Shown here: piece after piece, positions 7,106 through 9,111 of the stretch
How the letters are laid out: the number at the start of each line of letters is the position of its first letter
Position numbering within the stretch: the first letter of the stretch is position 1
Source of the DNA: Lentisphaeria bacterium
GTDB lineage: Bacteria; Verrucomicrobiota; Lentisphaeria; Victivallales; Victivallaceae
NCBI GenBank assembly: GCA_017414565.1
Contig: JAFQLP010000150.1
Span: 1 to 36,701, forward strand
Direction of reading: 5' to 3'
DNA: 36,701 bases
Notes under the pieces: model-generated
Database searches by the model: none
Told to the model about the DNA's origin: nothing
What the model saw: only the letters and a program-made list of their open reading frames with translations
Made by a program: the position numbers and the translations under genes

Positions 7106-7561
7106 ATGTACAAAGCAATCCTTCTGTTTCTGTTGCTTTTGATCGCAACCGGCCTGCAAGCCGCCGATCAGACAGCATGGGACCGGAACGCCAGACAACG
7201 CTGGTCCATCGTTCAGCTCGGCCTGCTCCCCGGCGAACCGACCGCCACCCGGCATTCTTCCACTTATGGGGTCAAAGTCGGCGCGCCCATCTGCGATGGT
7301 GCCCCGGTGGTCGGCGTTGAAGCCGCGCTCCTCTATGCCGGCAGCCGTTCCGTCACCGGATTCCAGGGTTCCCTGATCACCGCCGACTGCGATGATCTGA
7401 CCGGGCTTCAGTTCTCGCTGGTCAATTTTGTCCGTGACTGCGCCGGTCTCCAGCTCGGTCTTTTCAATTACGCCACCGGCAAAACGTTCCAGATCGGCAT
7501 CCTGAATTACTGTCAGGATTCCTGGTGTCCCTGGTTCCCGATCGTCAACTTCAAATTCTGA
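7106..7561 (+). CDS. Secreted short GxQ-type repeat protein, small paralogue
   Basis: A 151-residue protein with a clear Sec signal peptide (MYKAILLFLLLLIATGLQA, predicted cut at about residue 19). The mature part contains YGVKVGAPICDG, VVGVEAALLYAG and then short units of the form TGFQGSL, TGLQFSLVNF, AGLQLGLFNY, ending WFPIVNFKF. The alternation of small and hydrophobic residues at a period near 14-19 suggests stacked beta strands, as in LA_2272-type surface-repeat proteins; I recall that family and could not search it. A good AAGGAG site supports the ATG. The following gene shares the same opening, repeat type and ending, so this looks like a tandem duplication that later lost or gained repeats. 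Function is unknown; export to the periplasm or surface is likely. Confidence 0.75.
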   Translation: MYKAILLFLLLLIATGLQAADQTAWDRNARQRWSIVQLGLLPGEPTATRHSSTYGVKVGAPICDGAPVVGVEAALLYAGSRSVTGFQGSLITADCDDLTGLQFSLVNFVRDCAGLQLGLFNYATGKTFQIGILNYCQDSWCPWFPIVNFKF

Positions 7562-7583
7562 ATCAGATAAAGGAGCAAATATC

Positions 7584-8435
7584 ATGAAACTTCTCGTCTG
7601 TTCCCTGTTGGCCGCCGTTTCTTCGTTTGCCGTTCTTCAGGCCGCGGAAGCACCGGCGGAACCCGCCCGGCCGCAGCCCCGTTTCCAGCGTCGCGCCACC
7701 GCGCCCCGGACGGAACAGCAGGCCCGTCCGAACCGGCAACGCCCGCCGCGGCAGAATGTTCCGTTCCAAGCCGCGGAGCCGCAGCCCGATCCGCTGACGG
7801 AATGGAGTCTTTTCCAGGTCGGCATCCTCCCCGGCATCCCGGCGGCCACCATCACCAGCAATGTGTATGGTGTGAAGAGCGGCTGGCCGATCGTCAACGG
7901 CATCGGCAGTGTTTACGGTGTCGAAGGTTCGTGGCTTTATTCCGGCACCGCGGATATCAATGGTATCCAGGCCAGTTTCGTCAGCTGCCGGAACCGGCGG
8001 CTCAATGGGATCCAGGCGGCTTTCGGGGTCTGCCTCAACGAAGAATCGGTGCAGGGCATCCAGGCCTCTCTCGGGGTTTCTGTGGCCGGTGATGTCAAAG
8101 GGGTTCAAGGCACGCTCGGGCTCTGCCACTCCGGCGACATGATCGGGCTGCAGGCGAGTTCACTCAACATTTCCGGCGATGTCACGGGGTTTCAGGCGGC
8201 GGCGGTCTGCAATGTCACCGGCGATGTCACGGGATTTCAGGCTTCGGTCATCTGCAATGTCACCGGCAATGTGGAGGGTTATCAGACGGCTCTCATCAAC
8301 AAAGCCGAATCCGTCAACGGGGTTCAGGTCGGTCTGATCAATGTGTCCGATTCCAAGGGCATCCAGTTCGGTCTGATCAACTACATCAAGGATTCCGCTG
8401 TCCCCTTCTTCCCCATCGTCAATTTCTGGTTGTAA
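7584..8435 (+). CDS. Secreted short GxQ-type repeat protein, large paralogue
   Basis: A 283-residue protein with a signal peptide (predicted cut after AVLQA, about residue 21) and then a Pro/Arg/Gln-rich linker (about 22-70), probably disordered. The rest matches the preceding gene and adds many units: NGIQASF, NGIQAAFGVC, QGIQASLGVS, KGVQGTLGLC, IGLQASSLN, TGFQAAAVCNV, TGFQASVICNV, EGYQTALIN, NGVQVGLIN, KGIQFGLIN, then FPIVNFWL. Near the end the unit is 14-15 residues and two copies are also alike at DNA level (8173-8262). The pattern suggests a short beta-solenoid or membrane-associated beta stack. An AAAGGAG site lies upstream of the ATG; the gap from the first paralogue is 22 nt. A strong terminator follows. 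No enzyme motif is seen, so no function is assigned. Confidence 0.78.
   Translation: MKLLVCSLLAAVSSFAVLQAAEAPAEPARPQPRFQRRATAPRTEQQARPNRQRPPRQNVPFQAAEPQPDPLTEWSLFQVGILPGIPAATITSNVYGVKSGWPIVNGIGSVYGVEGSWLYSGTADINGIQASFVSCRNRRLNGIQAAFGVCLNEESVQGIQASLGVSVAGDVKGVQGTLGLCHSGDMIGLQASSLNISGDVTGFQAAAVCNVTGDVTGFQASVICNVTGNVEGYQTALINKAESVNGVQVGLINVSDSKGIQFGLINYIKDSAVPFFPIVNFWL
8173..8262 (+). repeat. Two adjacent 45-bp coding repeats
   Basis: The blocks 8173-8217 and 8218-8262 are in register and differ at about six positions. Each encodes one 15-residue unit of the large repeat protein (the two TGFQ...CNV units). Such near-identity suggests recent unit duplication by slippage or unequal crossing-over. 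Confidence 0.75.
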
Positions 8436-8455
8436 AGGCCCTTCCATCCGGGCCG

Positions 8456-8491
8456 CGCGGCATACCACTCCGGTCATGCCGCGTTTTTTTT
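8456..8491 (+). terminator. Rho-independent terminator after the repeat-protein pair
   Basis: An 8-bp GC-rich stem (CGCGGCAT pairing with ATGCCGCG) with a 12-nt loop, followed at once by eight T residues (8484-8491). It lies 20 nt after the stop of the large repeat protein. Confidence 0.9.
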
Positions 8492-8545
8492 GCGGCCGCT
8501 CAATCCACGGCCGGCAGACAACGGAGCGATAGTATGATGCCGCCG

Positions 8546-8614
8546 CCCGTCGCACGGGTCCTCTACTGTTGCGGCAACGGAGCAATGACATCCGTTCGCA
8601 GCCCGTCGCACGGG
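8546..8614. repeat. Twin mini-hairpins at the 3' end of the macrodomain gene
   Basis: The 13-mer CCCGTCGCACGGG occurs at 8546-8558 and again at 8602-8614. Each copy can fold as a 5-bp stem with a 3-nt loop. The first lies just after the macrodomain stop (minus strand), the second inside its last codons. No U-tract follows on the minus strand. Confidence 0.5.
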
Positions 8615-9111
8615 CCCAGCAGACGGCGGTAGATCTGACAGGCTTCTTCGTGGAAACAGCAGAAAATCACCAGTTCCGGTAATACCTCCTGCCATGCCCG
8701 GACCGTTGCCACCGCGATCGCCGCCGCCCGTTCAGCCGGAAAATGGTAAACCCCGGTCGAAATACACGGAAATGCCACCGAGCGGCAATGATGCCCGGCC
8801 GCCAATGCCAGTGAATTGCGATAACTGTTGGCCAACAGTTCATCTTCGTTGGCCCGGCCGCCGTGCCACACCGGCCCGGGGGTGTGGATCACCCATCCGG
8901 CCGGCAGCCGGAATCCGGGTGTGATCCGGGCTTCTCCGGTGGGACAGCCACCGAATTCCCGGCACGCCGCCAGCAGTTCCGGTCCGGCGGCCCGGTGAAT
9001 GGCCCCATCCACTCCGCCGCCGCCCAACAGCGAACAATTGGCGGCATTGACGATGGCATCGACCTCCAGACGGGTGATATCACCGCACCATATCCGGCAT
9101 TCCCGCGTCAT
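8563..9111 (-). CDS. Macrodomain protein (ADP-ribose binding, YmdB/O-acetyl-ADP-ribose deacetylase type)
   Basis: A 182-residue stand-alone macrodomain. Motifs in order: [28 protein letters not shown] with the ADP-ribose-binding VNAAN and Gly-rich loop, [20 protein letters not shown], and the phosphate-loop segment [10 protein letters not shown]. The family binds ADP-ribose and often removes ADP-ribosyl groups or deacetylates O-acetyl-ADP-ribose in the cytosol; the exact substrate is not visible. The start overlaps the stop of the HNH gene as ATGA, so it is translationally coupled, and both follow metG. It could be a housekeeping hydrolase, or together with HNH a small nucleic-acid-related unit; the latter is speculation from the coupling alone. 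Confidence 0.88.

Follow-up and report, generated by a model that had tools for sequence, protein, structure and literature searches.

The LA_2272 family surface repeat (NCBIfam NF047436, cut-off 25 bits) is a known repeat type, and similar or related repeats are described by the models NF047437 (VC2662 family, cut-off 140 bits) and NF047435 (LA_2272/LA_2273 lipoproteins, cut-off 30 bits). The literature on LA_2272 and VC2662 was found to consist of lists and one proteomics result: V. cholerae VC2662 was of higher abundance in an ompU mutant, and deletion of VC2662 left the colony phenotype of that mutant similar (PMC10865864). Here we describe two adjacent genes of this repeat type, coding for a short protein (P0001) and a long protein (P0002), in a 36,701-nt stretch of DNA (the window; contig JAFQLP010000150.1 of assembly GCA_017414565.1) from a Lentisphaeria bacterium of the phylum Verrucomicrobiota, assigned by its named relatives to the family Victivallaceae. 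Our preferred reading, to which we give a probability of roughly 60%, is that the pair is a conserved bicistronic unit of Lentisphaeria making two exported, self-capped solenoid rods of the LA_2272 family, which would act together as components of the cell envelope.

The initial annotation had placed the two proteins in the LA_2272-type repeat family, and the NCBIfam search agrees with this placement: P0001 and P0002 score 40.9 and 25.6 bits against NF047436, both above the cut-off, P0002 barely. Of the proteins in the first alignments, the short ones all match the same model (19 of 19), as do the long ones with a single exception (22 of 23). It spans 30 positions and captures the repeat type of the window proteins, and is silent on the short/long operon, the caps and the function. 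The pair thus adds well-delimited new members to a known, functionally uncharacterised family, which occurs in 149 of the 289 sampled genomes of the phylum, about half of them, and for which neither a function nor a solved structure was found here. In contrast, the two proteins do not belong to the VC2662 family, since their scores against NF047437 (34.2 and 35.2 bits) are far under the cut-off, nor to the LA_2272/LA_2273 lipoproteins, since P0001 reaches 17.5 bits against NF047435 and P0002 has no match; a lipobox is absent from both. A Pfam search with both proteins gave no meaningful match, and matches in a PDB sequence search were at chance level. Plasmids were searched for relatives of the short protein and phages for relatives of the long protein; none were found, and the pair therefore shows no sign of a mobile element.

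The two genes are open reading frames on the forward strand at 7106-7561 (151 aa) and 7584-8435 (283 aa), separated by 22 bp and each preceded by an AGGAG-type ribosome site. Both products carry, by inspection, a signal-peptide-like N-terminus ending LQA-A, which supports the predicted export of both. In the short protein the putative signal peptide (7106-7165) lacks a lipobox, is likely cleaved after LQA and corresponds to helix 2-20 of the AlphaFold2 (AF2) model. It is followed by an N-terminal cap block (WSIVQLGLLPG...YAGS; 7202-7345) and about four GxQ repeat units (7355-7516), both delimited by sequence, alignment with relatives and the model, and by a C-terminal cap, CPWFPIVNFKF (7526-7558), recognised from sequence and alignment. 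The long protein has the same arrangement, with a signal peptide, a Pro/Arg/Gln-rich linker (7647-7799) that exceeds the linkers of relatives in length and has low model confidence, an N-terminal cap block (7800-7958; sequence, alignment and model), ten repeat units, U1-U10 (7959-8399; unit comparison and GxQ chain), and a C-terminal cap, VPFFPIVNFWL (8400-8432; sequence and alignment). The N-terminal blocks of the short (WSIVQLGLLPG..STYGVKVGAPI) and long (WSLFQVGILPG..NVYGVKSGWPI) proteins are 44% identical. The ten GxQ motifs of the long protein follow one another at intervals of 13-16 residues in a single unbroken chain; 20,000 shuffles produced no such chain, their largest being of four. 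The signal is weaker in the short protein, though still unusual: it has four GxQ motifs with a chain of three, reached by 4 of 20,000 shuffles. The architecture first noticed in the two proteins, i.e. neighbouring exported products with a common N-terminal block, a GxQ-type repeat 14-15 residues long and the ending FPIVNF, is therefore present as described.

The pairing of the two genes was followed through 38 Lentisphaeria-type loci (L035-L072), from which L038, L052 and L071 were left out, the long gene lying at a contig edge. Each of the 35 loci with enough flank has a short gene next to a long one, and the order of the two is reversed in three (L067, L069 and L070). In a tree built from the N-terminal and C-terminal blocks that the two proteins share, whose few columns make its inner detail weak, long and short proteins are divided completely by a single branch with a support of 97/97; the duplication therefore predates the divergence of these genomes, and both copies have been kept since. 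Judging from these comparisons, the short/long pair is a gene unit of long standing in Lentisphaeria that has been inherited stably; its constant adjacency and the age of the duplication are described here for the first time. The constant co-inheritance suggests that the two proteins act together, and the pairing offers a concrete, testable unit of two proteins, one operon and fixed lengths.

Repeat number is almost fixed in both proteins. Core length, taken as the distance from the conserved W/Y region near the N-terminus to the protein end, could be determined for 36 long and 33 short proteins; it is 193-196 aa in 27 of the former and 119-123 aa in 32 of the latter. Relative to 195 aa, the long exceptions deviate by approximately whole units: +15 in the window, +16 in L061 and L064, +32 in L045 and +12 in L059, with L056 (-14), L069 (-16) and L070 (-29) on the shorter side and L052 at about +13 once its C-terminal tail is set aside. 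The sole short exception is L068 (+14). The long protein of the window thus carries one extra unit. Its units are collinear with those of L035 and L036, and U3 and U4 share one best-matching relative unit, so the unit without a counterpart is U4 (KGVQGTLGLCHSGDM; 8097-8141) or U3. The initial annotation had pointed to neighbouring 45-bp DNA repeats with about six differences, and these are indeed found at 8173-8217 and 8218-8262 (87% identity, six differences). However, this pair represents U6 and U7, each with a positional counterpart in relatives, and is not the gained unit that had been implied. In the L035 comparison, U7 resembles the counterpart of U6 more than it does its own, and local homogenisation of the two is possible; all other unit pairs have at most 60% DNA identity. 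Change of the array by unit gain, as had been suggested, holds only over slow evolutionary time; most relatives have one common repeat number, and changes involve whole units. The suggested phase or length variation is not supported: the short-protein repeat number is constant in 32 of 33 cases, and phase variation was rejected for want of a near-identical repeat array. Fast variation of repeat number within species is unlikely.

AF2 models were built from 33 aligned sequences for the short protein and 37 for the long one. The mean predicted local distance difference test score (pLDDT) is 89 for the short and 85 for the long protein, and most of each repeat region scores above 95. Both models are thin beta-solenoids with one repeat unit per coil, in line with the short-period beta stack expected from the sequence. 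In the models, some units have a strand break at positions 5-7 and others at 11-12, and elsewhere the strands continue through either place, a pattern compatible with a flat coil that has two corners in each unit. Charged residues are almost absent from unit positions 1-10, except for Glu replacing Gln at position 3, and the charge is located at the turn. The only low-confidence stretch inside the long-protein repeats, residues 173-183, coincides with the extra unit (it overlaps U4), for which there is almost no alignment depth. Gains and losses of whole single units (in the window, L052, L056, L059, L061/L064, the short protein of L068, and L069) agree with a unit that forms one coil; an array of antiparallel hairpins is disfavoured, because an indel of one unit would leave all strands after it pointing the opposite way. 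In the predicted fold, each unit of 14-15 residues would correspond to a single coil of the thin beta-solenoid and include a polar turn, and the shared caps would close both ends of each rod. The short and long rods would differ mainly in coil number, with about 8 versus 13-14 segments, caps included.

Two observations weigh against this fold. Structure comparison of the two models gave no significant match (best E-values 0.086 and 0.29) and low template modelling (TM) scores. Moreover, perfect repeats are known to lead AF2 to beta-solenoids that are confident yet unrealistic (PMC11795689), and the predicted solenoids could be an artefact of this bias. Such an artefact is less likely, because the window repeats are diverged, with a mean unit identity of 28%, and the coil is almost charge-free. 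The better structure matches, none of them significant, are mostly beta-solenoids, i.e. the left-handed helices of GlmU, LpxA and LpxD, antifreeze proteins and secretion-domain helices; in a viral structure library, no match reached significance. The spruce budworm antifreeze protein (1m8n) is a beta-solenoid whose coils comprise about 15 residues each. Its weak local match to the short model (E-value 1.1, TM-score about 0.2) does not demonstrate a shared fold, and no sequence relation to the window proteins was shown.

The export signals, the charge-free coil faces, the family name, and Bacteroidota relatives whose repeats run into barrel-like strands (by eye) point to the envelope. We infer that the short and long rods act jointly as structural parts of the cell envelope, with a location in the outer membrane or at the surface. 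The rods would associate via their charge-free coil faces, and rod length would be set by unit number. If the two proteins do form one complex, the pair would provide a handle on envelope building in these poorly studied bacteria. A stronger version of this proposal, in which the two proteins are obligate partners building an undescribed Lentisphaeria envelope structure, a thin, charge-free solenoid with coils of about 15 residues and without solved counterpart, on or in the outer membrane, appears doubtful at present.

Alternatively, the proteins may be soluble periplasmic or secreted solenoids that act separately in binding, for example of polysaccharide via a flat Gln/Gly face. In favour of this idea, G1, Q3 and a small residue at position 5 are strictly conserved and would form a regular ladder, and the ligand- or ice-binding beta-solenoids 1m8n and 5uyt are among the weak structure matches. 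However, none of those matches is significant, and the constant co-inheritance of both genes suggests joint action; we therefore regard separate binding proteins as an unlikely explanation.

An antiparallel outer-membrane beta-barrel is a rather poor candidate, although it has several features to recommend it. Each unit would then supply one membrane strand of 10-12 residues, with hydrophobic residues towards the lipid and Gly, Gln and small residues on the inside, and the short protein would be an eight-stranded barrel. The alternating, charge-free stretches of 10 residues with polar turns fit such strands, and a C-terminal Phe resembling a barrel assembly signal is carried by many members but not by all, namely by 20 of the 37 long and 25 of the 33 short proteins. 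The Bacteroidota relatives with barrel-like strands after their repeats (L080:1650-2267 and L082:5650-6492, neither recognised by Pfam) also speak for a barrel, and that of L080 ends GLRF. However, the recurrent gains and losses of single units would flip all later strands, the segment number of the most frequent long form is odd rather than even, and several members carry additional residues beyond the last strand. Furthermore, strand 106-123 of the short-protein AF2 model runs straight through a polar turn, which is impossible for a hairpin, and no outer-membrane barrel is found among the structure matches listed.

A hypervariable surface antigen, with a repeat number changing fast by slippage, might be read from the extra unit in the window and the similarity of the 45-bp pair, but it is highly improbable given a repeat number that is near-constant across genera (and almost completely so in the short protein), the divergence of all unit pairs besides U6/U7, and a 45-bp pair that is not a net gain.

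Further family members were seen beside or apart from such pairs. The window genome has four, namely the pair and two single genes on contigs C39 and C30 (G000:C39:6958-7356 and G000:C30:939-1304, loci L004 and L005; 170 and 163 aa), for which no partner gene was seen. In genome G018, a third, longer repeat protein (L010:521-1462, reverse strand; 314 aa, 13 GxQ motifs) adjoins a short/long pair.

As to the surroundings of the pair, a gene for an RluA-type pseudouridine synthase lies close upstream in 8 of 39 loci; it is a housekeeping gene and gives no functional clue. A promoter scan of the locus recognised none. Downstream of the long gene, a GC-rich hairpin followed by eight T (8455-8491, forward strand; z of -3.8 for 8436-8495) is a likely intrinsic terminator and is consistent with a two-gene transcript, although a consensus terminator scan did not pick it up. 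Just past this hairpin, a 43-bp imperfect direct repeat (8519-8617) is present in two copies, each with the hairpin-like 13-mer CCCGTCGCACGGG. This 13-mer occurs seven times in the genome, twice as a close pair, the reversed pattern being absent, and it may be an element resembling repetitive extragenic palindromic (REP) sequences. A gene for a macro-domain protein (Pfam PF01661, 159 bits) at 8563-9111 on the reverse strand faces the pair from downstream.
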